Assembly: GCF_003206135.1 (NCBI RefSeq)
Contig: NZ_PZJT01000006.1
Span: 255,250-319,249 of the forward strand
Length of the DNA stretch: 64,000 nucleotides
Direction of reading: 5' to 3'
From: Salinicola salarius
GTDB lineage: Bacteria; Pseudomonadota; Gammaproteobacteria; Pseudomonadales; Halomonadaceae
Shown: positions 8,388-59,791 of the stretch, in pieces
Layout of the letters: each line of letters starts with the position of its first letter
Position numbering within the stretch: the first letter of the stretch is position 1
Made by a program: the position numbers and the translations under genes
The notes under the pieces: generated by a model
Seen by the model: the letters and a program-made list of their open reading frames with translations, nothing else
What the model was told of the DNA's origin: nothing
Databases searched by the model: none

Positions 8388-8401
8388 CCGTAACCTGCCC
8401 C

Positions 8402-8433
8402 ACGCGCTCGCTCGGCCACCGGGCGGGCGCGTT
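8402..8433 (+). terminator. Possible terminator after tctC-like gene
   Basis: GC-rich imperfect hairpin (ACGCGC...GCGCGT arms around CGG-CCG) 15 nt after the stop codon, followed by only a short TTT run. Confidence 0.45.
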
Positions 8434-8509
8434 TGCCTGCGAGCCGCGAAGGCTCTCGAACAAAACTGCCTGCCGCGACGAAAGTTGTATCCAAACCGCC
8501 TACGCTTGA

Positions 8510-9949
8510 ATGAATCGATCCTCGTCATCAACAGGCTCATTCATGAATGCATCGGTTACCAATGCAGCGTTTATCAATACCCTGATCGTGCAGTGGCTTG
8601 ATGCGCTGCCGTTCTGGATCATGGCAGCGGCCATCATCGGCGCGACCATCGTCGCCCATGGGCTGCTCAAGTACATTCACTTCCGCCTGCGAAGGCTCAA
8701 CGACAGTCGTCTGCACCTGATGAGCACGACGGCGATCGCCGTCCACCCACCGCTGGTTGGCGTCCTGTGGACATACGGATTGTTTGGCGCGGCGTATTTC
8801 CTGATTCCGCCAGCCGTGCAGGGTCACTCGCTGATCATGACGGCGGCGCACTTCTGCGCGGCGCTGCTGGGTGTATGGCTGCTGGTGCGAATGTCACGAC
8901 GTCTCGTCAGGGTCATGGATCGCTGGGCCGGCCGGCGCAAGTCGATGCTGGAACGCTTCCTGGTGCCGTTCATGGTGAGGTGCCTGGCAGTACTGATACC
9001 CATCTTCGTACTGTTCTCGTTGTTCCCGATTTTCGTCACCTCGGTACGCCTCGACACGGCGCTGCACAACCTCGCCAGCCTGATCCTCATCGCCAGCATC
9101 GCAGGCATACTGATCCACGGCGTCAACATCAGCGAGCGAGCGCTGAGCGAACGCTACCGCTTCGGTGACGAGGAGGACGCTATCGCACGCAAGGTGCATA
9201 CCCAGATCACCGTGCTGCGCAAGTTGATCAACTTCATCATCATCGTTCTGGCCGTCGCCTCGATGATGATGGTGTTCGAGAAAGTCCGCCAGCTCGGCAC
9301 CAGCATTCTGGCCTCGGCAGGCATTCTCGGTGTGGTACTGGGCTTTGCCGCGCAGAAGGTGCTGGGTAACCTGATCGCCGGCATCCAGATCGCGCTGACG
9401 CAGCCGGTGCAGCTGAACGACGCGGTGATCGTCGAAGGCGAATGGGGCTGGGTGGAGGAGCTGACGCTCACCTATGTCGTCGTGAGATTGTGGGACTGGC
9501 GGCGGCTGGTCCTGCCGATCACCTATTTCGTCGACCACGCGTTCGAGAACTGGACACGCCGCGACAAGGACCTCATCGGAACGGTCATCCTGTACGCGGA
9601 TTACCACTTGCCCATGGAGCCGCTGAGAGAGGAAGCGCAACGTCTGGCGGAAGCCTCGCCGTTGTGGAACCGCCGCGTCTGCGTCGTGCAGACACTGGAG
9701 ATGACCGAGCGCAACAAGCAGCTGCGTGTGCTGGTCAGCGCCACCGGCGGGCCCAACACGTTCGACCTGCGCTGCGCGATCCATGAAGGGCTGATCGATT
9801 TCATCTGCCGGCACTACCCGGAGTATCTCCCCACCGTGCGTCTGCAGATGCCAATGCGCAACGGCGGCAACGAACCTCAGCCGCCGCTGGCGGAAGCCAT
9901 GGGCGACAACGCGCTACCCAATGACGCCGACGGCCAGCCGAATTCCTGA
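8510..9949 (+). CDS. MscS-family mechanosensitive ion channel
   Basis: Inner-membrane small-conductance mechanosensitive channel relieving osmotic downshock, a plausible need for a halophile. 479 residues, longer than E. coli MscS (286) because of extra N-terminal membrane helices. Seen: several hydrophobic segments in residues 25-215, then the pore-lining helix region ASAGILGVVLGFAAQKVLGN, and the beta domain after it (PVQLNDAVIVEG). Start is uncertain: ATG at 8510 or ATG at 8543 (MNASVTNAAF); neither has a strong ribosome-binding site. No partner genes. Confidence 0.88.
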   Translation: MNRSSSSTGSFMNASVTNAAFINTLIVQWLDALPFWIMAAAIIGATIVAHGLLKYIHFRLRRLNDSRLHLMSTTAIAVHPPLVGVLWTYGLFGAAYFLIPPAVQGHSLIMTAAHFCAALLGVWLLVRMSRRLVRVMDRWAGRRKSMLERFLVPFMVRCLAVLIPIFVLFSLFPIFVTSVRLDTALHNLASLILIASIAGILIHGVNISERALSERYRFGDEEDAIARKVHTQITVLRKLINFIIIVLAVASMMMVFEKVRQLGTSILASAGILGVVLGFAAQKVLGNLIAGIQIALTQPVQLNDAVIVEGEWGWVEELTLTYVVVRLWDWRRLVLPITYFVDHAFENWTRRDKDLIGTVILYADYHLPMEPLREEAQRLAEASPLWNRRVCVVQTLEMTERNKQLRVLVSATGGPNTFDLRCAIHEGLIDFICRHYPEYLPTVRLQMPMRNGGNEPQPPLAEAMGDNALPNDADGQPNS

Positions 9950-13176: not shown

Positions 13177-14490
13177 TCATGGTAATCGGTTTTGGCCGAC
13201 ATAACCCGCATCGCCTGGCGAACGCCAGTACAGTGTGAGGAGTCCCGCCACGATCAGGTTGTGCACGTAGATGCCCGTCCAGAAGGAGAGATAGGACTCG
13301 AACTGATTGACCACCAGCCAGTAAAAGAAGAAAGCCAGCGCAAACAACGCCACATCGTTGGGCATGTCGCCCCGTTTCCAGGCTTTCCAGCTGATGACAG
13401 CGACCCATGCCACCAGCGCGCCCATCACCGCCAAGCCGAGCACGCCATAATTGACCAGTGTCTCCAGCAGGAAATTATGCAAATGACCGAAGTGCGCTTT
13501 CACGAACTCGGGAAGCCACGGCGTGTGTTCGATGACCAGCTCGCGCCCATTGCTACCCCATCCCAGCCACGGTCTTTCAGCGATCCAGTGCGTAGCCGCG
13601 ACCCAGGAATGAATCCGAATACCGATGCTGGTATAGGGGAGCGTATCCAGCTTCCCGGAGAGCAGCTGCGCGATGACCTGATCCTCGGTGAACACCCGGT
13701 CAGTCAGCACATGCCCGAACGAAGCGGCGACGATCCCGCCAGCCACTACGAGAACAACGCCAATGGAAATCGTCGTTCGGTTCCATAGACGGACCTGGTA
13801 ACGCTTCCTGGCGTACCATCCGACCACTGCCAATGCAACGACCGAGGACACCAGCAGCGCCAGCCAGACGGCTCGAGTCTGACCGAACAGAATCCCCACC
13901 AGTGTCATCAGCGTCAGCCCCAGCCAGAGGCATGCACGCCCCCATCGAAGCCCGCCGGACCAGCAGAAACGCCTGGCAAAGGCCATGAGCCCAATCAGCG
14001 CGACCCCAAACAACATCGAGGCATGCTGATTGTTCTGGATGCCAAAGCCGACGCGCTCGCCCTGCAGGCCAGCGGCCCATGAATCACGCCCTTCGGGGAA
14101 GATCACCGTCGTCAGCAGGAACGCCAGGAGCGCCAGCCCCCAGACCCAGAAAACATGGCGGAGACTCCCACGCAGCCACCAGGCAATGGCAATGAAGATG
14201 AAAAGCTTCGCCATCCGCTCGGTATCCGGGTTGGGCCTGGCCCACTGCGGATGATCAGCGATGGCAAGCCACCAACTGAGGAGCTGCACCAGGCAGATCG
14301 CAACCAGCAATCCCAGGGCAGCGCTCCTTCGGCGCCAACCCCCAAAAATCAGCAGGGAAACCAGCCCTAGAAACGCCATGTAAGGCTCGATGACGTCTTT
14401 CAGCGGATGTGCCGCGATACCCAGCGCGGCGTACACCAACACCAATGCAAACCCCAGCCGCCAGAGACTCTTGGGGCAATCCCAACCCAT
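13177..14490 (-). CDS. O-antigen ligase / polymerase family membrane protein
   Basis: Polytopic inner-membrane protein of the Wzy/WaaL (Wzy_C) superfamily, which polymerises or ligates lipid-linked glycans in the periplasm. 437 residues with about 10-12 hydrophobic segments spread along the chain. Seen: the central motif RTVWLALLVSSVVAL (as QTRAVWLALL) and, in the large periplasmic loop, ERPWLGWGSN and FGHLHNFLLETLVNYGVLG, typical of the Wzy_C domain. ATG at 14490. Same direction as ugd and manC, so likely part of surface-polysaccharide assembly. Ligase versus polymerase cannot be decided from sequence alone. A protein O-glycan ligase is also possible, but the neighbours favour a polysaccharide. 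Confidence 0.85.
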   Translation of the reverse strand: MGWDCPKSLWRLGFALVLVYAALGIAAHPLKDVIEPYMAFLGLVSLLIFGGWRRRSAALGLLVAICLVQLLSWWLAIADHPQWARPNPDTERMAKLFIFIAIAWWLRGSLRHVFWVWGLALLAFLLTTVIFPEGRDSWAAGLQGERVGFGIQNNQHASMLFGVALIGLMAFARRFCWSGGLRWGRACLWLGLTLMTLVGILFGQTRAVWLALLVSSVVALAVVGWYARKRYQVRLWNRTTISIGVVLVVAGGIVAASFGHVLTDRVFTEDQVIAQLLSGKLDTLPYTSIGIRIHSWVAATHWIAERPWLGWGSNGRELVIEHTPWLPEFVKAHFGHLHNFLLETLVNYGVLGLAVMGALVAWVAVISWKAWKRGDMPNDVALFALAFFFYWLVVNQFESYLSFWTGIYVHNLIVAGLLTLYWRSPGDAGYVGQNRLP

Positions 14491-15920: not shown

Positions 15921-15947
15921 TAAAGCAAAATTGAGTAGCGCCGATAA
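15921..15947 (+). promoter_or_regulatory. Sigma-28 (FliA) promoter of fliC1
   Basis: TAAA (15921-15924), a 15-nt spacer, then GCCGATAA (15940-15947): an exact match to the flagellar class 3 consensus. The flagellin ATG lies about 100 nt downstream, giving a fairly long leader. Confidence 0.9.
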
Positions 15948-16053
15948 CAGGGGTAACGGCCACGGGGCCGTTGCAGCAGGATCCGGCACCACCTGCCATC
16001 GCGCAGCGGATCAGGCCCAAATTGCCCTCTCAAAGTGAGAAAGGAATACGACA

Positions 16054-16968
16054 ATGGCAGTTATCAATACCAACATCACAGCGTTGATCGGTCAGAACAA
16101 CCTGAACAAGTCTCAGAGCAATCTGCAGACCGCCATGGAGCGCCTCTCTTCCGGCCTGCGTATCAACAGCGCCAAGGACGACGCTGCCGGCCAGGCCATT
16201 GCCAACCGCATGAGCTCCACCATCACTGGCCTGAACCAGGCTAGCCGTAATGCCAACGACGGTATCTCTCTGGCCCAGACTGCTGAAGGCGCGATGGACC
16301 AGATCAACGACAACCTGCAGCGTATTCGTGAGCTGACCGTCCAGGCCCAGAACGGCACCAACACTGCCCAGGACATTGACTCCATCCAGAAGGAAGTCAA
16401 CCAGCGTCTGGAAGAGATCAATCGCGTTACCACCCAAACGTCTTTCAACGGAACAAAAGTCTTCGGTTCTTCCGCCAGCACATCCTTCTCGATCCAAGTT
16501 GGCGCGAAAGATGGAGAAACTATCGGTATCAGCATCAGCAAATCTACCGCTGACGGTGCTTCCAGTGCTGCCAATAGTGGCTGGAACATGTACAGCTCTA
16601 CAGGAACAGCAGGAAGCAGCCTTGCCAGCGTTAACGGTGTAGCACGCACCGAAGCAGCAAAAGGTTTCGACGTGATGGCTACGGCTTCTGGCGAATCCAA
16701 CGCCTTGGCTATCATCGATGCTAAGCTCAACGCAATTGACACTGAGCGCAGCAACCTGGGTGCGGTTCAGAACCGCTTCGAGACTGCTATTGATAACATC
16801 ACCACTACTTCTACCAACCTGTCGGCAGCCCGCTCGCGCATCGAAGATGCCGACTATGCTGAAGAAGTTTCCAACATGACGCGTGCCAACATCCTGCAGC
16901 AGGCTGGCACCTCGGTTCTGGCCCAGGCTAACCAGACACCGCAGAGCGTGTTGTCGCTGCTTCAGTAA
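16054..16968 (+). CDS. fliC: Flagellin (short form)
   Basis: Structural subunit of the flagellar filament, exported by the flagellar type III system. 304 residues, a short flagellin. Seen: conserved N-terminal D0/D1 region ([46 protein letters not shown]) and C-terminal D1/D0 region ([36 protein letters not shown] end); the middle domain is only about 90 residues (roughly 170-260) and rich in Ser/Thr/Ala, offering O-glycosylation sites. AAAGGA precedes the ATG by 8 nt. Own sigma-28 promoter and strong terminator, so monocistronic. The adjacent OGT-like gene suggests it is glycosylated. Confidence 0.97.
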
Positions 16969-16986
16969 GCTTAATACTGAGTAGGA

Positions 16987-17018
16987 AACAAGGCCGGCAT
17001 GATGCCGGCCTTGTTTTA
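16987..17018 (+). terminator. Rho-independent terminator of fliC1
   Basis: Perfect 14-nt arms AACAAGGCCGGCAT and ATGCCGGCCTTGTT around a single G, ending in TTTT-rich sequence, 18 nt after the fliC1 stop. Confidence 0.92.
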
Positions 17019-17132
17019 TCTCAACACCTCGCAATAAAGGGCCTAGAGTGCCAACTATTCGGCGCTTTAAACGACATCAATTCTAGGAAACTAGCGTAAT
17101 CCCAATAGCACTAGGCCGGAAAACTGATTCTT

Positions 17133-20100
17133 ATGAGCCAGCATCCTCATGTCCCATCGCCTCTTCAAAAGCGATTCATGGATCTCTATCGCCAAGGAAA
17201 GTACAAGCTCGCCGGAGAAGAGGCCGAGCGTTTGGTTGAGAAGTACCCCGAGGATGTTTTTGCGTGGAAAGCGTTGGGCAATTGCCAACTGCAAACTGGG
17301 CATCTTGCTCGCGCCAAAGATACGCTGGAGATAGCCTACGAGATCGCGCCGGAAGACCCTCTACTCCTCACGGCTTTGTCACGAGCGTGTTTCATGATAG
17401 GAGAAAAAGACCGAGCGCATAGACTGCAGGCACAAAGTATTGAGCTCGACCCTAGGAATGCGAGGGCTCATTTCAATATGGCTGAGATGCTCTATCAGAT
17501 GGGAGCGTATTCAAAGGCAGAGAATTATTTATCAGACGCTGAGGAATTGGGGCATCCTATAGAAGAAATTCTGCCGATCCGGAGCATCATTTTATCACTT
17601 AACTTCCGGTTCCAAGAAGGGCTAGATGCATTAAATCAGCTGAAAGCATTGAAGCCGCAAAACCCGTCAGTACTCAATACTCTCGGCAACTATCACAAGG
17701 ACATGGCGGACTTCAAAAATGCCGAGTGGTATTATCGTGAAGCCCAGCGCCTCAGCCCGGGCTATTCGCAAGCCTACTCCAACGAAGTCCTCACTCTACA
17801 TTATGATCCACAGGCTTCAGCAGAGAGCATCCTACAAAAATCCCGCGAGTGGACCGAGCTTTTCACTCCGCCGCACGTCTTCGAGCATACCCGGACGGAC
17901 TTGTTTGAAAATCGAACGATCAAGGTAGGGCTGGTTTCCGGCAACCTGCGAGCTCACCCGGTCGGCTGGATGATCAGTAGCGCGCTCGAGCACCTCCCGA
18001 AAGATATCGAGCTACATGCCTATACTGATAGCGAATCGGACGATCCGATTGCCGAAAGCATCAGAAAGGTGTGCCACTGGAAGCCCGTCTATCACCTGGA
18101 TCACCAGCAACTCGCGGCGAAGATCGCCGAGGACGGCATCGATATCCTGATCGACCTGGCTGGGCATGGAGGACACAGCCGTCTCCCGACCATGGACATG
18201 AAGCCTGCCCCGATCATCGTCAAATGGGTCGGCATGCAGATTAGCAGCATGGGGACTCCTGCGTTCGACTACTTCCTGAGCGACAGTATCGAAACCCCTG
18301 TCGGTGTAGACGACCAATACACGGAAAAGCTCATCCGCCTACCCGATGACTACGTCTGCTATCAGCCTCCGTCCTACAAGCCATCGATAACCTCCCTGCC
18401 GGCGCTCAAGAATGGCCATGTGACTTTCGGCTGTTTCAATAACCCTGCCAAGGTAAACGATACCTTGCTGAAAGAGTGGGCCGAGCTGCTCAAGCTGCTC
18501 CCGCAAAGCCGCCTGTTCCTGAAAGGTGGTCAGTACAGCAGTCCTGACGTATGCGAACGCATCCTGAATACGCTCGAGAGCCAAGGCATAGCCCGCGATA
18601 GAGTGCTACTGGAAGGGCCGTCGAGACACCAGCAACTTCTCGAGAGCTACAACAGAGTCGATATCGCGCTCGACACATGGCCCTACTCCGGCGGCCTGAC
18701 CACTTGCGAAGCCCTGTTGATGGGTGTGCCCGTTGTCACGCTGCCCGGCCCAACCTTTGCCGGGCGACACTCCGCGACGCACCTGACCAACGCGGGCATG
18801 CAGGAGCTGGTCGTCAGCAGTTGGGATGAATACCGGCAGCGTGCCATCGAGCTGGCCGCCGACTTGCCCAGCCTGGCCGTGATTCGTGCCTCGTTGCGAA
18901 CTTATCTAGAGCAGTCTCCGATTTGCGATGCGCCACGCTTCGGCCGATTCCTACACAAGGCTCTGCGCGGCATATGGACGCGCCACTGCCAAGGAAGCGC
19001 ACCTACTGCTTTAACATTCAATCAGTCAGGACAGGCATGGTTCGAGGGAGAGAAACAATCTTTTCGGCTGCCAAAGCCCCTGCGCCATCCCGCCGAACTC
19101 GACGAGGATCTCGGTTCACCAATCACCATTCTCGATAATGGCGGGATCTTGGTCTCGCGAAGCGATGTCGATTTGCTGCCCGACAGTGGACAAATCGTCG
19201 CTCTGCTGTTCGATCCCGCTTCGCGGCTACTGGGACATTCACGCCTGCTGGAGAACCAGGCAATTCAGTACTTTCCTCAGGTAACCCTGGGGGATGGATC
19301 ACCAACCGTGCTGTATCAGGATGATGATGAAGCCGGGGGCATCACTGCGCCCAACGTCTCGCCTATCGGTGATATCGAAAACTTGACTATCCCCAGCATC
19401 GCGCTGGACAGCATCGAAGGCCTCGAGAGTTTTGACATTCTAGCCCTGGATGCAAGCTTCGATGTCGATGCCATACTGACAAACGGCAGCCGGACGCTCT
19501 CTGAAACCTTGGTAGTCTTGGTCAAACTCGATCTCACAGATCCACGACAAAAGGACCCCATCCGTCTGACCGAGATAATGAGATCTTGCGGGCTTACATT
19601 ACATCGAACGCTCAACCTGATGTCTTCCAGACCGACATCATCTGATCGTGATCGGTTTTCCGAAAATCTCACGTCCATGGAATTGATCTTCATCCCCTCG
19701 GCGTCTAGAAGAAACACATTCGAGGAAGGCGCAAGGACAAAGCTATCATGGAGCCTGCGCCAGCTAATTCACACGCAAGTGCCTTCAGATCTGCTTGAGG
19801 CATCTCCGGAAGATGATCGTCAGTCCTTCACCAATGCCCTCGAAGTGCTTAACCGCAAGGCACCTCAGATCAAACCATCCGCGCCGGTCACCCACTGGCA
19901 GCAAGTCATCAAGTCGATGATAGCGGTCAATCAGCCCAAGGAGTCTAGACAGCATGGCCTGAAAGGCGAATTGATTGTCTCGCTGACCTCCTACCCCCGC
20001 CGCTACGATTATCTGCCGGTGGCACTTGAGAGCCTTCTTTCCCAGACCGTCAAGCCGGATCGCATCATTCTATGGATCGCGGAACAGGATCGCTCGGCAC

Positions 20101-20726
20101 TAAGCAAAGATATCCTTGCATTCGAAAAACAAAGCCTGGATATCAGATTCTGCCGAGACATAAGGTCCTACAAAAAGATCATTCCGGCTCTGGAACAATT
20201 CCCCAATGCCTACATTGTCACGGCTGACGACGACACATATTACTCGACGTACTGGCTGGAAGAACTGGTTTCCGCGCATAAAAGCTCAGGAAAGATACCC
20301 GGACATCGCCTGCACCGAATAGTACTATCAGCTTCAGGTGAACCACTTCCCTACAACCGGTGGCAACGTGAAATACGAAAGGATTTACGACCCCATCCAT
20401 TGAACTTTCCCACCGGCATAGGGGGCGTGTTGTATCCGCCGAACAGTTTTCATTCTGATGTAACGAACGATGAACTATTCATGTCGCTTTGCCCGACGGC
20501 AGACGACATGTGGCTCTACTTCATGGCACGCTTGGCGGGCAAGGAATTTCATCCAGCAACCGACTCGGTCAGAATCCTGGAACTCCCCGGTAGCCTGGAA
20601 ATGAGCTTATTCTCCGAAAACTACAACGGCGGCAACGACAAACAGATGAAGGCACTGCTCGATCACTACGGCCAGCAACTTTTCAACTCAAAGCTGAACG
20701 CTAAAAAGAGCGGAAAAATCTCATGA
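17133..20726 (+). CDS. TPR + GT41 (OGT-like) + second glycosyltransferase fusion; probable flagellin glycosyltransferase
   Basis: 1197-residue cytoplasmic protein predicted to glycosylate flagellin Ser/Thr before export. Seen in order: TPR repeats (about 10-235, e.g. FAWKALGNCQLQTGHLARAK); an SPINDLY/OGT-like GT41 catalytic region (about 260-640) with DLAGHGGHSRLPTM near residue 345, FLKGGQYSSPDV near 465, and the UDP-sugar signature YSGGLTTCEALLMGVPVVTL near 518 followed by GRHSATHL; a linker of about 300 residues without clear family; then a second domain (about 943-1190) starting GELIVSLTSYPRRYDYLPVA with an Asp triad DDD at 1032-1034 (IVTADDDTYYS), like the metal-binding DXD of GT-A enzymes. 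The ATG at 17133 lacks an obvious ribosome-binding site. It overlaps the next glycosyltransferase by 4 nt. Flagellin as acceptor is inferred from adjacency to fliC. Confidence 0.88.
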   Translation: MSQHPHVPSPLQKRFMDLYRQGKYKLAGEEAERLVEKYPEDVFAWKALGNCQLQTGHLARAKDTLEIAYEIAPEDPLLLTALSRACFMIGEKDRAHRLQAQSIELDPRNARAHFNMAEMLYQMGAYSKAENYLSDAEELGHPIEEILPIRSIILSLNFRFQEGLDALNQLKALKPQNPSVLNTLGNYHKDMADFKNAEWYYREAQRLSPGYSQAYSNEVLTLHYDPQASAESILQKSREWTELFTPPHVFEHTRTDLFENRTIKVGLVSGNLRAHPVGWMISSALEHLPKDIELHAYTDSESDDPIAESIRKVCHWKPVYHLDHQQLAAKIAEDGIDILIDLAGHGGHSRLPTMDMKPAPIIVKWVGMQISSMGTPAFDYFLSDSIETPVGVDDQYTEKLIRLPDDYVCYQPPSYKPSITSLPALKNGHVTFGCFNNPAKVNDTLLKEWAELLKLLPQSRLFLKGGQYSSPDVCERILNTLESQGIARDRVLLEGPSRHQQLLESYNRVDIALDTWPYSGGLTTCEALLMGVPVVTLPGPTFAGRHSATHLTNAGMQELVVSSWDEYRQRAIELAADLPSLAVIRASLRTYLEQSPICDAPRFGRFLHKALRGIWTRHCQGSAPTALTFNQSGQAWFEGEKQSFRLPKPLRHPAELDEDLGSPITILDNGGILVSRSDVDLLPDSGQIVALLFDPASRLLGHSRLLENQAIQYFPQVTLGDGSPTVLYQDDDEAGGITAPNVSPIGDIENLTIPSIALDSIEGLESFDILALDASFDVDAILTNGSRTLSETLVVLVKLDLTDPRQKDPIRLTEIMRSCGLTLHRTLNLMSSRPTSSDRDRFSENLTSMELIFIPSASRRNTFEEGARTKLSWSLRQLIHTQVPSDLLEASPEDDRQSFTNALEVLNRKAPQIKPSAPVTHWQQVIKSMIAVNQPKESRQHGLKGELIVSLTSYPRRYDYLPVALESLLSQTVKPDRIILWIAEQDRSALSKDILAFEKQSLDIRFCRDIRSYKKIIPALEQFPNAYIVTADDDTYYSTYWLEELVSAHKSSGKIPGHRLHRIVLSASGEPLPYNRWQREIRKDLRPHPLNFPTGIGGVLYPPNSFHSDVTNDELFMSLCPTADDMWLYFMARLAGKEFHPATDSVRILELPGSLEMSLFSENYNGGNDKQMKALLDHYGQQLFNSKLNAKKSGKIS

Positions 20727-21727
20727 CGACAGAACAGCAACACGGCTCAAGCCTGGCCCCTCCGCAGGAAGTCATCATGGCCAATTGGGAACCAGTCGAT
20801 ATACAAGTGACGGTCGTCGTACCGACGTTCAATCATGCCCCCTATCTAGATCAGGCCATGAAAGGAATCCTTGGCCAGAAGACGAGTTTTCCCTTCAAGG
20901 TTGTAGTGTACGACGATGCATCGACAGACGGCACTAGCGATATCGTCAAAGGTTACCAGCAGCGCTATCCAGAGATAGTGGACGCCTATATCGCGTCTTT
21001 TAACCATTATTCCCAAGATATTCCTCGGACAGAGCACTTTTCACTGCTGCGCGGTGAATACATCGCCTATTGCGAAGGCGACGATTACTGGATAAATGAA
21101 GATAAACTGCAAATCCAGTTTGATCTTCTAGAGCGGTACGATGTCAACCTATGCGTCCACCCTGCGATAATATATTTCGAGGAATCAGGGCGAACCGATC
21201 TTTTTTGCAGCTACGGTGACAAACTCTCATTGCTTTCACCGCAGCTAACTTACAAATTAAAAAACCAATTTGCACCCACTGCTTCGTATTTTCTCAGGCA
21301 AAGCTGCCATGCATCACTGCAACAATTCATGGAAGAGAGAAGACCTGGCTATGGTGATTTTTTTATTGAAGCCCTTTGTGGAGAAAAACCTTACCTCTAC
21401 ACGCCTGAAGTTATGTCAGTTTATCGACGTGGCCATATCGGCTCATATAGCGCGAACACATCAAGAAACCAGACAGAAGAATTGCAAAGAGATTTTGACA
21501 ACAGCATTCATAATCTCAACCTGCTTCACAAGTTTATCATGACTAATGAAAACCTACTGGAAGAACGGCGCCTAAATATCGAAAAAGACTTTTGCCAAAA
21601 AATGCTATCTTTACATGGACCAATTGCTCAACTCCACCAAAGGCTGGAAACGATTAACCGCTCACTTGGCACCATACAAGTTGATGAATACATTAGCCCA
21701 CTAAAAAAACCTCATGCACCAAATTAA
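20723..21727 (+). CDS. Family 2 glycosyltransferase
   Basis: GT-A fold glycosyltransferase transferring a nucleotide-activated sugar. 334 residues; domain about 25-240. Seen: VTVVVPTFNHAPYLDQAM, VYDDASTDGTSDIV, and the metal/nucleotide-binding GEYIAYCEGDDYWIN, all typical of the GT2 family. The start ATG overlaps the fusion-protein stop (ATGA), so translation is coupled and the two very likely build one glycan in sequence. The C-terminal third is AT-rich compared with the upstream gene. A methionine at residue 19 (MANWEPVDI) is a weaker alternative start. Likely role: extending the first sugar placed on flagellin. Confidence 0.88.
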   Translation: MTTEQQHGSSLAPPQEVIMANWEPVDIQVTVVVPTFNHAPYLDQAMKGILGQKTSFPFKVVVYDDASTDGTSDIVKGYQQRYPEIVDAYIASFNHYSQDIPRTEHFSLLRGEYIAYCEGDDYWINEDKLQIQFDLLERYDVNLCVHPAIIYFEESGRTDLFCSYGDKLSLLSPQLTYKLKNQFAPTASYFLRQSCHASLQQFMEERRPGYGDFFIEALCGEKPYLYTPEVMSVYRRGHIGSYSANTSRNQTEELQRDFDNSIHNLNLLHKFIMTNENLLEERRLNIEKDFCQKMLSLHGPIAQLHQRLETINRSLGTIQVDEYISPLKKPHAPN

Positions 21728-22005
21728 TTAAGAACACAAAGCAGAACATCAATTTCATTATTCAAGGGCAGTAGCGAATCTTATAGACCAGCTACTGCCA
21801 ATCAATTGCATCAGAGCAACCAGACAGCACTTAACGCCTCAGGCTCCTTGCCATAACCCTTCCAAAAAAGAGCTATCTAACTTCCGTCTTTATTAGCTCG
21901 CTTCTAAACTAAAAGTGCTTTAAAATGATTGCCTCCATAGCTGCACAGATTAGAGAGTTCTTTTATCAGAAAAACAGAATAAACGATGACAACTCCATCA
22001 AATGA

Positions 22006-22202
22006 TGGCCCCCCAAGCGTAAAGCCGCCGTAGTCATGGGAATGTTCAATTGCAAGACTACGGCTGCTGAAGTGGATCGCCAGTATGGCCTCACTGTCTC
22101 TGAGATCGAGAGCTGGATTGACCAGGTCCAGCGCAGCATGGAGACGGCTCCAAAGCCCGTCCCAAGAACATCCGTAAGCAGTATGAATCAGAGATCTCAT
22201 AG
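22006..22202 (+). pseudogene. IS3-type orfA (HTH transposase subunit) relic
   Basis: Reading from 22006 gives KRKAAVVMGMFNCKTTAAEV and then VDRQYGLTVSEIESWIDQVQ, an HTH of the IS3/IS911 OrfA kind. Within 22147-22153 the frame slips; the frame after it resumes as KARPKNIRKQYESEIS and a TAG stop. The start and the region beyond about 65 residues are missing, and no orfB follows (only a short open stretch to about 22302). It is a decayed insertion-sequence fragment in the middle of the glycosylation island. A 125-codon open frame on the opposite strand here is its shadow. Confidence 0.65.
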
Positions 22203-22363
22203 GCATTGATTCATCGAAAGCGTCAAAGACAAATTCAGGGACGCTGTCTCGACCAGCATCAGCCCTGTCAAGAGGAAGCATTCAACGAAATCAGACAATA
22301 GAAAGCACCACACATAACACAGAAGCTCCTAACACTGGTAGCGGCCAAGTTAACACCGGCCAA

Positions 22364-23134
22364 CTATGAAATATTTTGCTGGACTTTAGACTTTAGAATA
22401 AAAATCGGTCGGTTTAAAAACTCGCCTAGAGAGTCATCACGAGCAATATTTTCATTACTGCAATCTCTATAAACAACTTTATTATTTACTTTTTCTGCAA
22501 CACCAATTTTTTCAACCTCCCAAAATTCTTCTACCCCGGCTTTAATAAAACCAATCATCTCTGACTTTAAACCTAACTCAAAGAGAGGAGAACTTCTTTC
22601 ACCTTTCCAGCAGAATCCCATCTGGAAAACCAAATATTGAGAGCACTTAGACAAACTATTCAAATTAGACAACATTAATTTCTTAGCCTTGGATATATCT
22701 GACTTAGGGTCACCATAATCGTCGCCAAAATGATGTACGACATTCATCAGATATGACACGTCATACCGTTTTTTCAAACTCTGATCAAAATCATAATAAT
22801 TATTAAAAATATTGATGCGTTCTTCTAGCTCCAAGTATCGGCCAGCTACTGATACAAATTCAGCGTGAGCCGAATCTCCTTCGACATAATCAACATGCCT
22901 AGCACCAAGACTAAGGCTTTCAAATGAAAAATATCCAGTATTGCCACCGATATCCAGGACTACAGCTTTCTCCAACGGAACATTTTCAGCAATAAAACTC
23001 AACCTTTCCCTATCAAACTTCGTCGTTTTAGGCAACTCCCCTAACAACGCTCCAAGTGCGGTTGGCAGCGCTTGATACTGCGAATGTTTACTTGCAAGCA
23101 TATATAGAGTTTTAAGGTTTTTTACATACATCAC
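22364..23134 (-). CDS. Class I SAM-dependent methyltransferase-like protein
   Basis: About 256 residues. Seen: motif I VVLDIGGNTGYFSFESLSLG (about 58-77), acidic YVEGD after beta-2, and SYLMNVVHHFGDD at the position of motif IV, giving a Rossmann-type SAM methyltransferase fold. Starts at GTG 23134, overlapping the ATP-grasp stop (GTGA), or at the following ATG 23131; AAAGGA lies just upstream. AT-rich, unlike the bulk of the window, suggesting acquisition by transfer. Inference: O- or N-methylation of the amino-sugar or its acyl group, within the flagellin-glycan pathway. A sequence-specific target cannot be read from the protein. Confidence 0.72.
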   Translation of the reverse strand: MMYVKNLKTLYMLASKHSQYQALPTALGALLGELPKTTKFDRERLSFIAENVPLEKAVVLDIGGNTGYFSFESLSLGARHVDYVEGDSAHAEFVSVAGRYLELEERINIFNNYYDFDQSLKKRYDVSYLMNVVHHFGDDYGDPKSDISKAKKLMLSNLNSLSKCSQYLVFQMGFCWKGERSSPLFELGLKSEMIGFIKAGVEEFWEVEKIGVAEKVNNKVVYRDCSNENIARDDSLGEFLNRPIFILKSKVQQNIS

Positions 23135-24243
23135 AGCAATTCCTTTAAAAAAATCCCAACGGAATCTTTCCGAGAGTAAATATCAAACTTCATCCAATCA
23201 TTAACTTCAAACATCTTTTCAGATTGACCTGTAGCGCACCTAACAGGAAACTTATTTTCTCGAAGAGTTTGACATAAACCACCAAACCAAAAGTATTTTT
23301 TTTGCTTACAGGCATAATCCCGCGGCTTATAAAAACTATATGCACCACACCAATCCTGTATGAATGCCTCAAAAAAACCTACATTATTATCCACCAAAAG
23401 CTGAGAAGGTCCCCAAAGTCTAGGGTTAGCCTCAATCATATAACAACCTGACTCGTTCAATTTAACTTCTACCATAACCAATCCTTGGAAACCCAGATCC
23501 AATAACATTTTTTCGTAAATTTTTGAATATTCGCTCATATGAAAGGTTGATGGCTCTGCCGCTAAAATTGATTTACCATCTGGTTGCTGGAGAATGTTTT
23601 TCTGGGAAAATTTCAAAACCTGACCACGAGCAAAGTAGTAGAGAAGATAAACACTCTCTCCTATCAAATATTCCTGAAAATAAAAACTATCTAAATTGTA
23701 ATTATCAAAAAACTCTTTCCTTTTTTCTTCTGAGTTTACAAGGACGGGAGAAATTGGCTTTGCCGATAAAGATTCACGATATGTCCTCGGCTTAGCAACA
23801 AAAGTCGACCCCAACTTATATACAGACATTTCCTTGGGAACTTCAATATTAAACGACCGGCATATCTGCGAAAAGGACTCTTTGTCAGATAATGACTCAT
23901 AAAGAATCCTATCTACTAAAGGAATAATATATCCAAGCTCTTCCAGCTCCCCCCTATTTTGAAGTAAAAATCGATTCAGGTACTCTGAGGTGGGCAGTAA
24001 GACTATCTTACAAAGCCCATCTTGTCGTAAAACGGCCTCCCTTATTCCTCTCATAAGTTCTATATCTAAGCCCTTATGACGCCTACGATATATAATCCTA
24101 TCCAAGTAAGTCGTTGTATTTATCGGATCATCATCACCACAAGAAACAATACGGAAATTTACTTTGCTTTTCGCTGCACATCTCAGGAAGGCAATAGCAG
24201 CCCGCTGGTTAAAACCGGTAAAAATCAACAAAATTTTTTTCAT
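23131..24243 (-). CDS. ATP-grasp domain protein
   Basis: 370 residues. N-terminal pre-ATP-grasp-like domain (KKILLIFTGFNQRAAIAFL), then ATP-grasp fold: FVAKPRTYRESLSAKP (about 170-185) in the phosphate/adenine region, FYFQEYLIGESVYLLYYFA, and the metal-binding end VMVEVKLNESGCYMIEANPR with the conserved E-x-N-P-R. Such enzymes form an amide or thioester from a carboxylate and ATP. AT-rich and coupled by overlap to the methyltransferase. In this setting (after a sugar aminotransferase gene) it may attach an amino acid or other acid to the amino group of a dideoxy sugar; this is inference. Carbamoyl-phosphate-synthase-like annotations would be generic. Confidence 0.75.
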   Translation of the reverse strand: MKKILLIFTGFNQRAAIAFLRCAAKSKVNFRIVSCGDDDPINTTTYLDRIIYRRRHKGLDIELMRGIREAVLRQDGLCKIVLLPTSEYLNRFLLQNRGELEELGYIIPLVDRILYESLSDKESFSQICRSFNIEVPKEMSVYKLGSTFVAKPRTYRESLSAKPISPVLVNSEEKRKEFFDNYNLDSFYFQEYLIGESVYLLYYFARGQVLKFSQKNILQQPDGKSILAAEPSTFHMSEYSKIYEKMLLDLGFQGLVMVEVKLNESGCYMIEANPRLWGPSQLLVDNNVGFFEAFIQDWCGAYSFYKPRDYACKQKKYFWFGGLCQTLRENKFPVRCATGQSEKMFEVNDWMKFDIYSRKDSVGIFLKELL

Positions 24244-24334
24244 ATAAAACCTAAGCCAACGCGACTTAAAAAAGCCCAGCCACTATCAAAAGCAGAACCA
24301 AGATGTTCGGTATCAGCAAAATCAAAGTGGCACC

Positions 24335-25453
24335 TTAGACCTTAGCTTCAATTTTCCGATCTATCTGTGACAGAACACAGTCTATGATTGAGCGTTGCGA
24401 AAAGTGATCCAGATCGCTATACAAGGGTAGACAAAGAATACGGCTTGCAATATTTTCTGAAACTTCGCAATCATTTTCCACATCCATAAAAATACTTTTG
24501 TTAATAGATGGATAAAAGTAACGTCTGGCAAAAATTGCTTTAGACTGAAGAGATGTCTGTACCAATTCAAGCTCATGTGAATCACTAAGCAGTATAGGGA
24601 AGTATGAGCAATTATTGCTACAGTTAACATTTTTTTTCTGGGTTACCAACTTATCAGCCAGCTTTGATTCGTAATTTGACCACACTTTGCTTCTAAGACC
24701 CAAATTCTCCTCCAACTCATCTAAAACAGAGAGTCCCATAGCAGCCTGAAACTCGTTCATCTTAGCGTTAATTCCAAGGCAATCAATATTTTCCGGCCCC
24801 GTTATACCAAAATTAATCATTTTTCGAGCCGCTTCATAGTGCTTGCGCTCTTTAAAAACAATGGCTCCACCTTCAATAGAGTGAAAAAGCTTCGTAGCAT
24901 GGAAGCTCAAAGTTGCGGCATCTCCATATTTGAGAATGCTATCCCCTTTATAAGTCACTCCAAAGGAGTGAGCACCATCATATACAACCTTCAAATTATT
25001 ACGCAGAGCAATCTCATTTATCTTCTCTATATAGCAAGCATTGCCAAACACATGAGTGGGCACAATAGCCCTTGTTGCAGGAGTTATCGCCGATTCAATA
25101 TTAGCCGGATCAAGGCACCATGTCGCCGAATCAATATCCACGAAAACTGGCTCGACGCCTTCCCATTTCAATGAGCTAGCCGTTGCCACAAATGTGAAAG
25201 GCGTCGTGATCGCCTCTACCCGTTCATAATGGGCGCGTTCGGAGATACCGAGCGCCCGATAAGCGATTTGCAGAGCAAGCGTACCGTTCGAGACCAATAG
25301 CAGGTTTTCTACGCCCAGATACGTTTCCAGTCTGGCAGTCAGTTCCTGCACCAGCTGGCCGTTATTGGTGAGCCATTGGCGTTCGTAGATACCGTCTATA
25401 TATTTATCCAGCCGTTCACGGGCTGGCAGATAAGGGCGAGTATAGGGAATCAT
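24335..25453 (-). CDS. DegT/DnrJ/EryC1/StrS-family sugar aminotransferase
   Basis: PLP-dependent aminotransferase acting on nucleotide-linked keto-sugars. 372 residues. Seen: [15 protein letters not shown] (PLP phosphate region), [46 protein letters not shown], and [18 protein letters not shown] with the PLP-binding Lys (about 187). The start ATG overlaps the end of the rfbA remnant (ATGA) and has no ribosome-binding site of its own, so it relied on coupling to rfbA. Next to rfbB it would aminate dTDP-4-keto-6-deoxyglucose at C4 (VioA/WecE type) or its 3-keto isomer (FdtB/QdtB type). No isomerase gene is present, which favours C4. GC falls sharply along this gene from start to end. Confidence 0.86.
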
Positions 25454-25883
25454 AAGGTAGACAGGCTCCGTAAATAACGACCGTAACCGTTCTTGGAAAA
25501 TTGTCTGGCGGCTTCCAAGAGCTGCTCTTCATGCAGCCAGCCGTTACGCCATGCGATCTCCTCCAGACAGGCAATTTGATAGCTATGAACTTTTCACCGA
25601 TCAGAAATGCCTGTGCCAGCCCATCCGGGCTGGCCTGGACCGCATAGCTCAGTTCGACACCGAAGCGATCGCCCTCCCCCAACAGGCGTTTGAAGCTCTC
25701 CTGATCCTGGGGCGTGGTAATGATGAGGATCTCTCGAATCCCTGCCAGCATGAGAACCGAAAGCGGGTAGTAGATCATCGGCTTGTCGTAGATCGGCAGC
25801 AGCTGTTTGGAAACCCCCATGGTGATGGGGTGCAGCCGGCTACCGGTGCCTCCGGCCAGCACAATGCCCTTGTAGCCCTTCAT
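25450..25883 (-). pseudogene. rfbA: Glucose-1-phosphate thymidylyltransferase, internally deleted
   Basis: The first 100 codons are intact RfbA ([57 protein letters not shown], ending GEKFI). At about 25582-25586 the frame shifts and the C-terminal piece [20 protein letters not shown] ... SKNGYGRYL continues in another frame to a TGA at 25450. Normal RfbA has about 290 residues, so roughly 145 residues of the catalytic middle are missing. Both flanking ATGA overlaps (with rfbB and with the aminotransferase) survive, so the loss was a clean internal deletion. Sugar activation must come from another rfbA copy if the pathway still works. Confidence 0.88.
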
Positions 25884-26947
25884 GCCGATACTCCGAGACG
25901 ACCCGCAGCGTTTTGCTCGAGCGTCGATGCGCCGGACCAATGTCGATTGGCGAGATACCAGGCCACTGTCTTTCTCAGTCCGTGTTCGAAACTTTCCCGT
26001 GGCTGCCATCCCAGCTCTCGCCGGATCTTGCTGGCATCGATGGCATAGCGCTCGTCATGTCCGGGACGGTCGGTCACGAATCGAATGAGAGAGTCGTAGG
26101 TATCGACTCCATGGGGCTTGTCGGGGGCGAGCTGCTCCAAGAGGGCACAGATCGCCCTTACGACATCGAGATTGGTCAGCTCGTTACCGCCACCTACGTT
26201 ATAGGTTTCCCCGACCACGCCCCGCGTGACGATAGTCGTCAACGCGTGAGCGTGATCTTCGACGTACAGCCAGTCCCGGATCTGCTGGCCACTGCCATAG
26301 ACAGGCATCGGCCGACCGTGCAGCGCAGAGAGAATCATCAACGGGATGAGCTTCTCCGGGTACTGATAGGGACCGTAGTTGTTGGAGCAGTTGGAGACGA
26401 TGACCGGCAACCCGTAGGTGCGATACCAGGCCCTGACGAGATGGTCCGCGCCGGCCTTGCTGGCTGAGTACGGCGAACTGGGCGCATAGGCGGAACCCTC
26501 ATCGAAGCGCGCCTGCCGATCCTCGCCAAGATCACCGAAGACTTCGTCAGTGGAAACATGATGAAAGCGGAAGCTCTGACGTCGTACACCGCTCAACCCA
26601 CGCCAGTAGTGGCGCACGACCTCCAGCAGCGTTGCTGTGCCCAGCATGTTGGCATGGACGAACGGCATCGGATCGTCAATGGAACGGTCGACATGGGTTT
26701 CTGCCGCCAGGTGCATGACGGCATCCGGTTCATGCCGCTCGAAAACCGCTTCCAGCGCGGGGCGATCGGTGATATCGACTTTTTCGAAGCGATACCGCGC
26801 TTGGCCGTGGTGAGCGAGTGACGCTTCCGGATGCGCCGCATAGCCCAGCTTGTCGATATTGACGACCGAGTGCGATGTCTCCGCGAGAAGATGCCGAACC
26901 AGCGCGCTACCGATGAAGCCCGCTCCGCCAGTCACTAATATTTTCAT
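25880..26947 (-). CDS. rfbB: dTDP-glucose 4,6-dehydratase
   Basis: Extended short-chain dehydrogenase converting dTDP-glucose to dTDP-4-keto-6-deoxyglucose. 355 residues, full length. Seen: [20 protein letters not shown] (NAD-binding), [30 protein letters not shown] with the catalytic Thr-Asp-Glu, and [14 protein letters not shown] with the Tyr-x3-Lys. First gene of the leftward set rfbB-(rfbA)-aminotransferase, joined by overlaps. It has the high GC of the main genome, unlike the genes further down the same operon. It faces away from fliC2 and would be transcribed from the short region 26948-27084. Confidence 0.95.
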
Positions 26948-27084
26948 CAGGCGTGGCTACCGCATGGAAAGTATTGCGGACCATGATGTGCGAGAAACCG
27001 CCACGTCATTCTCTCGAATAGAAGCTACTGCGACCGCCTATTTGGCAGGAGCAAGCCGGGCCGGCTCGTGAAGCTACTGTGCGC

Positions 27085-27111
27085 TAAAGAACACCGCCGC
27101 GCGGCCGATAA
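27085..27111 (+). promoter_or_regulatory. Sigma-28 (FliA) promoter of fliC2
   Basis: TAAA (27085-27088), 15-nt spacer, GCCGATAA (27104-27111): exact consensus, 41 nt before the flagellin ATG. Confidence 0.9.
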
Positions 27112-27152
27112 AGTCAGAACGCCTCCCTATTTTCCCGGAGCTGGTTCTCGCC

Positions 27153-29129
27153 ATGTCGGTCATCAATACCAATCTTCTTGCCCTCAGGGCCCAGCAGAAT
27201 CAAGGGCGAGCTTCGAATGGGCTTTCTACCTCGCTAGAGCGTCTGGCTTCTGGCCTGCGCGTCAACGGTGCCAAGGATGATGCCGCTGGGCAGGCGATCG
27301 GTAACCGCATGACGTCCCAAGTCAAGGGCCAGCAGCAGGCGATGCGCAATGCCAACGACGGTGTGTCACTGTCGCAGACGGCTCAGGATGCCTTGAGCGA
27401 AGTGAACGATCGTCTTCAGCGCATTCGTGAGCTAACGGTTCAAGGGTTGAGCGACACCTTGAGCGTGGCCGACCACGATGCGGTGCAAGCCGAGATCAAC
27501 CTCAATCTGAAAGAAATCGATCGCCTCGCGCAGCAGTCGAATTTCAATGGTTTATCGCTCCTGGATGGCTCGGCTGGCAACGTCCAGCTTCAGGTTGGTG
27601 CCAATGATGACGAGACGCTGGGTGTCGACCTCTCTCCGCCGGGTTTCAGCGTGGATGAACTGGGGCTGACCGACTTCACCGTCTATGGCGTCGAGGGAAA
27701 TCCGCAGCCTCTCGACACCTTGATGGGTACCGCTCGCAATATGGAGCTGAAGCCAGCAGCTGATGCCCAGGTCTCGACTGATCTGACTTTCCTCATCAAT
27801 GGGTCATCAGTAGACACCAGCACTACCGACCTTGTCCGAAACGATAGCCGCGAGTTCGAGGGGCTTTACCTGACTCGCGTGGAAGACGGTGCACCCGCTT
27901 ATTATTATTACAACCGGCTGGATGCGACACATTATACCGCCGAGAACCATAACGACATCACTATTGGAGGTGGCACATCGCTGTTCGAGGACCAGGCTCG
28001 TGTTAGCTTCGATGCGTCTCGAGCCACGTTCCTTGATGCCGACGACACTTCGACTTCGGGTACATTAGTCGAGTCCAACGACAACTATTATTTGCAGACC
28101 ATGGATGGCGACGGGAATGCGTTATATCAACTCGCAACCGTTACCATGAACCCCGACGGATCTTCCGTCGTGAAGGCTCAGAATAATACGATTTATAGCG
28201 ACCGAGGCGCAGATGGTGATGAGCCGCTTCCTGTTGCCGAAGGCAGTCTAACCGCTGTAGAGCACATCGTGATTCCTGATAGCGCAACTATCAATTATGG
28301 CAGTGATGTCGATACCAGTGGCGGCACGCGGCTATTGGAGAAAAACACTTTCCTGCCAGGTGGACAAGGTCTCTACATCGAAACCTCGAGCGGCGGTGAG
28401 TATCAGTATCGACAGGCGGAAGTCTCCGTTATCGCAAGCAGCAAGAGCAATATCAACGTCGACGCGAGCTACGATGCGGGCAGCTCGGCAGCCACCTTCG
28501 ATGTAGTCGACACGGTCGATGGGAAGTCAGTCATTACGCTTGATCCTTCGAACGTTCAGGTGGACTACCAGACATCGCAGAACACCTACGATGACGTACT
28601 CAGTACCGATGAGGACGGCTACGTCATGAATCTCGAGCAAAATGACGACGGTACCTATACTCAAGCAACGCTCGTTAACGACGACTTGAACTTCGGTACA
28701 CTAATTCGCACCGAGAGCGGTAGTGGTGATCTCGTCATCTATCATCAGATGTCTTTCTCCGCCGTGACAGACGCCAGCCTGGAACAAACTGGCGGCGCAG
28801 TTCGCACCCAAATTGTCTTGACCCAAAGTGATGAAGATTTACGTATCAAGACGCCGAAAGACCCGCTTGCAACCCTGGACCGCGCCATTGCTCGCGTCGA
28901 CGACAAGCGCAGCCTGCTGGGCGCAACAGAAAATCGCCTAGGTAGCGCTATCGATAACCTTGGTGCCAATACCCTCAATCTCAGCGAAGCCCGCTCTCGG
29001 ATCATGGACGCCGACTATGCGACAGAAGTCTCCAACATGACTCGTGAGCAGATCCTGCAGCAGGCTGGCACCTCGGTTCTGGCCCAGGCCAACCAGGTTC
29101 CGCAAGGCATTCTGTCTCTACTGCAGTGA
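27153..29129 (+). CDS. fliC: Flagellin (long form with large variable domain)
   Basis: Second flagellin, 658 residues. D0/D1 ends are conserved: [34 protein letters not shown] and IRELTVQGL at the N-terminus; EARSRIMDADYATEVSNMT and [15 protein letters not shown] at the C-terminus. Between about residues 170 and 570 lies a large acidic, Ser/Thr/Asp/Tyr-rich domain. In it a short motif recurs about five times (YLTRVEDGAPAYYYY near 238, YYLQTMDGDGNALYQLA near 310, LYIETSSGGEYQYRQAE near 406, YVMNLEQNDDGTYTQAT near 488, LIRTESGSGDLVIY near 517), suggesting repeated beta-hairpins exposed on the filament. GGAG lies 14 nt upstream of the ATG. Own sigma-28 promoter and terminator. Probable glycosylation target of the neighbouring enzymes. 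Confidence 0.95.
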   Translation: MSVINTNLLALRAQQNQGRASNGLSTSLERLASGLRVNGAKDDAAGQAIGNRMTSQVKGQQQAMRNANDGVSLSQTAQDALSEVNDRLQRIRELTVQGLSDTLSVADHDAVQAEINLNLKEIDRLAQQSNFNGLSLLDGSAGNVQLQVGANDDETLGVDLSPPGFSVDELGLTDFTVYGVEGNPQPLDTLMGTARNMELKPAADAQVSTDLTFLINGSSVDTSTTDLVRNDSREFEGLYLTRVEDGAPAYYYYNRLDATHYTAENHNDITIGGGTSLFEDQARVSFDASRATFLDADDTSTSGTLVESNDNYYLQTMDGDGNALYQLATVTMNPDGSSVVKAQNNTIYSDRGADGDEPLPVAEGSLTAVEHIVIPDSATINYGSDVDTSGGTRLLEKNTFLPGGQGLYIETSSGGEYQYRQAEVSVIASSKSNINVDASYDAGSSAATFDVVDTVDGKSVITLDPSNVQVDYQTSQNTYDDVLSTDEDGYVMNLEQNDDGTYTQATLVNDDLNFGTLIRTESGSGDLVIYHQMSFSAVTDASLEQTGGAVRTQIVLTQSDEDLRIKTPKDPLATLDRAIARVDDKRSLLGATENRLGSAIDNLGANTLNLSEARSRIMDADYATEVSNMTREQILQQAGTSVLAQANQVPQGILSLLQ

Positions 29130-59764: not shown

Positions 59765-59791
59765 TTATCGGCAGCATGCCTGCTCGCTTTA
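59765..59791 (-). promoter_or_regulatory. Sigma-28 (FliA) promoter of cheYZ
   Basis: On the minus strand TAAA (59791-59788), a 15-nt spacer and GCCGATAA (59772-59765): exact consensus, about 40 nt before the cheY ATG. It lies in the 76-nt gap after cheB. Confidence 0.9.

Follow-up and report, generated by a model that had tools for sequence, protein, structure and literature searches.

A putative flagellin glycosylation island of Salinicola salarius that combines a sugar aminotransferase with an ATP-grasp enzyme and a methyltransferase

Why should an ATP-grasp enzyme be encoded between two flagellin genes? The question is raised by a 64,000-nt stretch of the Salinicola salarius genome (the window), in which a preliminary description had recognized a group of glycosylation genes bracketed by flagellins. 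On the plus strand, fliC1 (16054..16968; 304 amino acids (aa); PF00669 8e-44, PF00700 3e-32) is followed by fgt, a TPR-GT41-GT fusion gene (17133..20726), and by a gene for a GT2-type glycosyltransferase (GT2; 20723..21727). Convergent with them is a minus-strand operon composed of rfbB, an rfbA remnant and the genes for a DegT aminotransferase (AT), the ATP-grasp enzyme and a methyltransferase (MT), beyond which lies fliC2 on the plus strand (27153..29129; 658 aa with a long central domain; PF00669 7e-33, PF00700 2e-27). This layout agrees with the coordinates first proposed. The two flagellin genes had also been described as driven by sigma-28, and each is preceded on its own strand by an exact match (15921..15947 and 27085..27111) to TAAA-N15-GCCGATAA, which we take to be the sigma-28 consensus; with up to two mismatches allowed, such sites number six in the window, three of them exact, against 1.88 expected by chance. 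The low G+C content reported for the island genes was recovered as well (0.371 for MT, 0.372 for ATP-grasp and 0.433 for AT, against 0.602 for the window). It is very likely that the locus is a flagellin glycosylation island. With moderate confidence, we favor the fuller reading that it is an O-glycosylation island of the viosamine type, in which a 4-amino sugar is N-acylated by the ATP-grasp ligase and then methylated. The observations behind this reading are the gene content, the intact frames, the predicted folds, the invariant residues, the joint occurrence of AT with ATP-grasp and MT, and the recurrent linkage to flagellin genes.

Which sugar might be made is best approached through AT (24335..25453, minus strand; 372 aa), a DegT-family protein (PF01041 3e-86) predicted to be a sugar 4-aminotransferase. 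Its best NCBIfam model is that of DesI, with 240 bits, under the equivalog cut-off of 650, and its best match in the PDB is 2po3, which we take to be DesI itself. DesI is a dTDP-4-keto-6-deoxyglucose 4-aminotransferase, and because AT scores best to it, a 4-amino-4,6-dideoxyhexose, of either gluco or galacto configuration, is the likely product. By the same scores AT is right in kind and may be a VioA-type aminotransferase, VioA being likened here by description. The dTDP-sugar genes had both been called broken, which proved right for one of them. Thus, rfbA (25450..25883, minus strand) is a remnant with an internal deletion and a frame change; what is left of it corresponds to model positions 1-97 and 241-284, read in two different frames. 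A broken rfbB is ruled out, in contrast, as this dTDP-glucose 4,6-dehydratase gene (25880..26947, minus strand) has a full frame of 355 aa that scores 479 bits against TIGR01181 (cut-off 365). ATGA overlaps are retained at the rfbB-rfbA and rfbA-AT junctions, the AT start lying over the native rfbA stop, so the operon was probably built with a whole rfbA, the middle of which was lost later. Two intact rmlA genes, each with an rfbB copy, are found on another contig (the rfbD and rfbC genes beside them were assigned by eye from translations), so the loss of rfbA need not halt the pathway, and a block to dTDP-sugar supply for this reason is ruled out. Gene position, the score of AT to DesI, the intact rfbB, the rmlA and rfbB copies elsewhere and the occurrence of the cassette by flagellins in two Vreelandella species (see below) lend good support to the earlier proposal that the island makes a 4-amino-4,6-dideoxyhexose, and we hold it with good confidence.

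The ATP-grasp ligase that follows AT in the operon (23131..24243, minus strand; 370 aa) scores 22.3 bits against PF02655, slightly below the cut-off of 23.2, and 15 of the 27 members of its family match that model at E 0.001. No convincing solved relative was found by sequence either for this protein (best E 0.2) or for MT (best E 0.0055), and a fold search was thus needed for both. The AlphaFold2 model of the ATP-grasp enzyme, computed from a 27-sequence input, has a pLDDT of 90.9, and the predicted fold spans the whole chain, as expected of a member of the ATP-grasp superfamily. Its best Foldseek match is PylC (4ffl, E 4e-15), and VIA Z scores are 23.2 for 2pn1 (280 residues, root-mean-square deviation 3.3) and 22.4 for PylC. 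PylC is a 3-methylornithine-lysine ligase. Although it is the best fold match, it belongs to another gene context, and the window protein obtains 28.1 bits against TIGR03909, far from the cut-off of 248.3 that defines PylC proteins. Six residues (K121, K151, E259, E271, N273 and R275) are invariant in all 27 sequences of the family; they are presumably catalytic, and their conservation appears compatible with an active ATP-grasp site.

MT (22364..23134, minus strand; 256 aa) is predicted to be a class I S-adenosylmethionine-dependent methyltransferase on the basis of its family alignment and fold. The window protein alone has no Pfam match, and matches to Pfam methyltransferase models are found among its relatives. 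Its model (pLDDT 88.2) retrieves methyltransferases with Foldseek, including CmoB, UbiG and OvoM. The frames of AT, ATP-grasp and MT are all intact and keep the residues that are invariant in their families. We infer from this gene set a pathway that runs from C4 amination and amide formation to transfer onto flagellin. RfbB, together with dTDP-glucose supplied by an RmlA encoded elsewhere, would generate dTDP-4-keto-6-deoxyglucose, whose C4 would be aminated by AT. At the expense of ATP, the ATP-grasp enzyme would then join the 4-amino group to a carboxylate, probably that of an amino acid, as an amide, and MT would methylate the product, on either the new acyl group or the sugar. Finally, the fgt fusion protein and GT2 would attach the finished sugar to Ser or Thr residues of both flagellins, either by itself or capping a short chain. 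Acid and methyl substituents, as had been envisaged earlier, are compatible with the predicted ATP-grasp fold and with MT. That the ATP-grasp enzyme is an amide ligase acting on the amino group made by AT, or on its direct donor, is probable in our estimation.

The genes for AT, ATP-grasp and MT recur together as a rare module. When genome contigs were scanned once on the basis of the ATP-grasp alignment, 27 ATP-grasp loci were obtained, a lower bound because the scan relied on two short peptide patterns, and these loci span Pseudomonadota, Bacillota, Bacteroidota, Balneolota and Synergistota. In 22 of the 27, MT lies beside ATP-grasp or is fused to it; AT is found near ATP-grasp in 20, and both accompany it in 18. 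The fusion of ATP-grasp with MT in five loci (L033, L034, L035, L038 and L041) suggests that ligase and methyltransferase act on the same or on successive intermediates. The gene order can differ, as in L021, where it is rfbB, ATP-grasp, MT, AT and rfbA. A flagellin gene lies inside seven loci (L021, L024, L026, L028, L029, L037 and L040) and within about 15 kb on the contig of the cassette in three more (L022, L030 and L036), thus 10 of 27 in total. The ATP-grasp family occurs in 5 of 275 genomes of the taxonomic family to which the window belongs, 2 of 390 of its order and 3 of 369 of its class, the genome of the window being included each time. MT occurs in four of the 275 family genomes, three of which carry the window-type ATP-grasp while the fourth is G223 (see below). 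In Anaerocolumna (L036 6450-9077), an 875 aa protein bears the ATP-grasp domain at its C-terminal end, behind a first part of 500 residues, and an MptE-like gene is found near a flagellin at the same locus. In a Cohnella locus (L102), FlaG and FliD genes stand between the cassette and the flagellin, and FliW is just past the latter.

The arrangement nearest to that of the window is found in Vreelandella songnenensis and V. populi, in which four flagellins and a glycosyltransferase are followed by convergent MT, ATP-grasp and AT genes. The preliminary description had called for a search for the same gene set next to fliC; in these two species the cassette lies beside flagellins, as it does in the window, where fliC1 and fliC2 flank the genes. 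The window proteins share 60-61% (AT), 40% (ATP-grasp) and 45-49% (MT) identity with those of Vreelandella, and the AT tree groups the window with them (99, a starred branch). Inheritance of the module as one unit was rejected, as the quick trees of AT, ATP-grasp and MT differ in detail.

Within the genus, the window-type ATP-grasp is absent from all 17 other genomes. The fgt region could be examined in 14 of them, some of these regions ending at contig ends, and an AT cassette was found there in three. In G177 and G178, rfbB, rfbA and AT are followed by a PylC/CPS-like ATP-grasp gene, fused to a short-chain dehydrogenase/reductase (SDR) domain in G177, and in G189 AT is followed by another ATP-grasp. 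The island of G223 comprises fgt, GT2 (43% identical to that of the window), MT (44%), AT (42%), rfbB and an rfbA that is unbroken. In place of the window ATP-grasp it encodes an ATP-grasp resembling L-amino-acid ligases, together with a protein of 276 aa. The gene of the latter (L119 6722-7552, minus strand) lies between ATP-grasp and MT and has no Pfam or NCBIfam match; a relative is encoded in L157 at 8253-9104. No flagellin is present in the 16 kb piece of G223, which begins at a contig end 1.3 kb before fgt. In BLASTP comparisons the window ATP-grasp reaches E 0.66 at best with the enzymes of G223 and G177 and gives a weak match (E 2e-7) to that of L156. ATP-grasp-type domains fused to an SDR/epimerase domain immediately follow a sugar aminotransferase at the flagellin loci L084 (11261-13318) and L170 (7497-9530), and L089 encodes a relative of similar size; L084 and L089 are both flagellin-linked.

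Whether such genes are tied to flagellins was assessed at all 64 places in the family that encode an AT at E 1e-90. A flagellin was present in the piece at 15 of the 64, eight of the pieces being shorter than 15 kb, so that a flagellin past the contig end would be invisible there. An ATP-grasp gene directly after AT (same strand, gap of at most 100 nt) was found at 8 of the 15 flagellin-linked loci vs 4 of the 49 others, in a scan for three ATP-grasp types drawn from the window, G223 and G177, a choice that favors flagellin-type loci and misses other types; the Fisher p value of 4e-4 ignores both this choice and the relatedness of the genomes. On a tree of 17 family ATs, the ATP-grasp label requires four changes, and 65 of 500 shuffles gave as few, which leaves the label without clear clustering. 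Judged by their sequences, the ATP-grasp genes that follow AT at flagellin loci are of several dissimilar types. That different types occupy the position directly after AT at flagellin-linked loci argues that their shared task is amide formation on the AT product.

The island can be compared with several described systems. In the viosamine island of Pseudomonas syringae pv. tabaci, which comprises vioA, M, T, S, B, R and acp, viosamine is acylated on its amino group through an acyl-carrier route (VioS, VioR, acp and VioB), VioM methylates and VioT transfers (PMC3927599). The window island resembles this system and that of P. aeruginosa PAK in having large glycosyltransferases, a methyltransferase encoded separately and an AT of VioA length (372 aa), and presumably also in its dTDP-sugar route and in flagellin as the target, VioA and VioM being likened by description (PMC3927599). 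Unlike those Pseudomonas islands as described, it has an ATP-grasp enzyme in place of the acyl-carrier set, and its genes lie directly between flagellins; no match to an acyl carrier protein, a ketoacyl synthase, a reductase or a VioB-type acyltransferase was obtained among the nine island proteins scanned.

ATP-grasp genes have been linked to flagellin modification in two other systems. In Clostridioides difficile type B, the flagellin bears Fuc3N with a taurinyl-Ala-Gly cap, which is absent from a mutant in the ATP-grasp gene (PMC5207246, PMC5207245). In kind, and by description, that locus (CDR20291_0241-0247) resembles the window in placing a sugar aminotransferase and an ATP-grasp gene at fliC, and the cap in its known structure consists of amino acids on an amino sugar (PMC5207246, PMC5207245). 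It differs, according to the same accounts, in having an FdtB-like aminotransferase, Fuc3N, and FemAB-like and ornithine cyclodeaminase-like genes, neither of the last two having a match among the nine island proteins, and in its methyltransferase domain, which sits within a glycosyltransferase of that locus (GT2), whereas MT of the window is a separate gene. In Shewanella oneidensis, deletion of either sfmD (methyltransferase) or sfmE (ATP-grasp) lowers the mass of the flagellins, and full modification thus requires both enzymes (PMC3765264). The proposed glycan is of the nonulosonic acid type, however, with a NeuB/PseI-like SfmA, a thiamine pyrophosphate-dependent enzyme and an oxoacyl-acyl carrier protein reductase, and no aminotransferase is listed among the five genes of sfmABCDE in what is described of the operon (PMC3765264). 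No PseI/NeuB-like nonulosonic acid synthase was found among the nine island proteins. The combination with an ATP-grasp enzyme had at first seemed unfamiliar. As to the trio of AT, ATP-grasp and MT, this still holds in our limited literature search, where no description of it was found (the ATP-grasp survey of Iyer et al. (2009), outside that search, may list the family), but the C. difficile type B and Shewanella sfm genes give the combination some precedent. Two surveys of flagellin islands, in Enterobacteriaceae (PMC4875605) and Geobacillus (PMC5109656), use neither the word ATP-grasp nor the word carbamoyl in their texts, and the search returned no paper joining Halomonas with flagellin, glycosylation and glycosyltransferase together. 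To the extent that these sources describe them, ATP-grasp enzymes in flagellin modification are precedented, and the window island adds an AT-ATP-grasp-MT variant.

A number of observations weigh against the proposed function, and rival explanations draw on several of them. No flagellin link is visible in 17 of the 27 ATP-grasp loci, several of the loci without a flagellin in the piece being on short contigs, and four of the 26 genomes searched as a whole (L019, L023, L031 and L038) contained no flagellin match; the genome of L021 was left out of this search, its flagellin having been found inside the locus. In L020, the flagellin contig (164610 bases) differs from that of the cassette (131957 bases). 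The preliminary description would have been contradicted had the A+T-rich genes been found elsewhere beside lipopolysaccharide genes and not at fliC loci, and half of this was indeed observed: some copies of the module are distant from any flagellin gene or belong to genomes that have none, yet it recurs at flagellins. Quick trees of ATP-grasp and MT (five starred branches each) do not group the window with Vreelandella. In the family survey, the four ATP-grasp genes at the 49 other AT loci are those of L119 and L155, which both have an fgt-like gene and lack a flagellin in the piece, of L158, and of L206 (partial AT), and 7 of the 15 flagellin-linked loci have none of the three ATP-grasp types searched; a Pfam check of one gene each at six of these seven revealed WbqC in L166, L169 and L157 (on the other strand in the last), a hexapeptide transferase in L172 and L154, and a sulfotransferase in L151. 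An O-antigen-ligase-like (Wzy_C) gene (13177-14490, minus strand), whose neighbor we take to be Ugd-like, lies 1.6 kb upstream of fliC1. The minus-strand operon might accordingly make a sugar of lipopolysaccharide or capsule, its place between the flagellins being coincidental, as the Wzy_C-type gene and the flagellin-less loci and genomes would allow. We nevertheless regard this as unlikely, since cassettes of the ATP-grasp family lie by or near flagellins in Vreelandella, a gammaproteobacterial metagenome-assembled genome, Burkholderiales, Cohnella and Lachnospiraceae, the large glycosyltransferase and GT2 genes face the operon both in the window and in G223, and no flippase or polymerase gene was found among the nine island proteins scanned.

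Two other explanations concern the chemistry. The fold alone cannot disclose what the ATP-grasp enzyme does: biotin carboxylases share the Z range of 22 to 23 with PylC and 2pn1, and the scores of purine enzymes are no more than about one unit away. It might build an acyl donor, such as a dipeptide or an N-modified amino acid, which MT would methylate and another enzyme attach. The ATP-grasp-MT fusions would suit such a role, as would the C. difficile type B locus, which, as far as it is described, combines ATP-grasp, ornithine cyclodeaminase-like and FemAB-like genes and yields the taurinyl-Ala-Gly cap (PMC5207246, PMC5207245). We consider this quite unlikely, as no acyltransferase match was obtained in the window operon, and a second enzyme is thus not evident locally. 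The decay of rfbA raises the further point that the island may be degenerating. It might then make no modified amino sugar, and flagellin, if glycosylated, would bear only sugars such as rhamnose from other rml genes; the transposase remnant at the operon end and the FliC2 central domain unshared with genus relatives (see below) point the same way. The intact frames of AT, ATP-grasp and MT with their family-invariant residues, the two rmlA genes with rfbB copies and the retained ATGA overlap at the AT start argue against decay, which appears decidedly unlikely. Amide formation on the sugar made by AT remains the reading that we prefer.

Further features concern the other genes of the island and of the window. 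The fgt protein (1197 aa; PF13844 9e-38 and several TPR models) is a likely flagellin glycosyltransferase, relatives of which adjoin fliC in genomes of the same genus. Its GT2-like C-terminal module has a PF00535 match at residues 956-1054 that remains below the cut-off (20.5 bits, cut-off 23.3). This module seems to have been exchanged, as the best match in most genus relatives ends near residue 880; relatives of residues 938-1180 are encoded in the same genome at C4:39285-40043 and in 10 Gordonia phage records. The gene of GT2 (334 aa; PF00535 4.5e-16) overlaps the end of fgt, and its relative in G223 occupies the corresponding place. The central domain of FliC2 (27690-28830) is matched in 16 of the 275 family genomes, its own included, and in none among the 17 genus relatives searched, a distribution that suggests exchange of flagellin genes between genomes. 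At the operon end lies a remnant of an insertion sequence transposase-associated helix-turn-helix gene of the DUF1153 type (22006-22137, or to 22203 in wider limits, plus strand; PF06627 25.3 bits, cut-off 23.5; HTH_Tnp_1 16.6 bits, under its cut-off), and a longer gene that resembles it, as judged by eye, is found in the flagellin-linked cassette region of G215 (L170 6290-6739, minus strand). The third exact sigma-28-type match of the window (59765-59791, minus strand) is located just beyond the end of a CheB-type chemotaxis gene (59802-60866, minus strand). One further, weaker PF00669 match in the genome, on the same contig, may correspond to flgL.

More tentatively, and with somewhat less than even confidence, ATP-grasp and MT might represent a general, horizontally moving cassette that adds amino acids, methylated on N or elsewhere, to 4-amino sugars of flagella and other surfaces, and flagellin islands might diversify the surface by swapping dissimilar ATP-grasp ligases in a fixed slot after AT. 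If so, the acylation step would be exchangeable like a cartridge at flagellin loci, and the ATP-grasp and MT pair, without a close solved sequence relative, would be given a specific substrate class. It would also provide a route for finishing amino sugars that stands beside acylation dependent on coenzyme A or carrier proteins and uses ATP together with free acids, amino acids among them. Aminoacyl-amido flagellar glycans, as in C. difficile, would then be recurrent among Gram-negative bacteria, and flagellin glycans bearing amino acids would be predicted in environmental members of this group.

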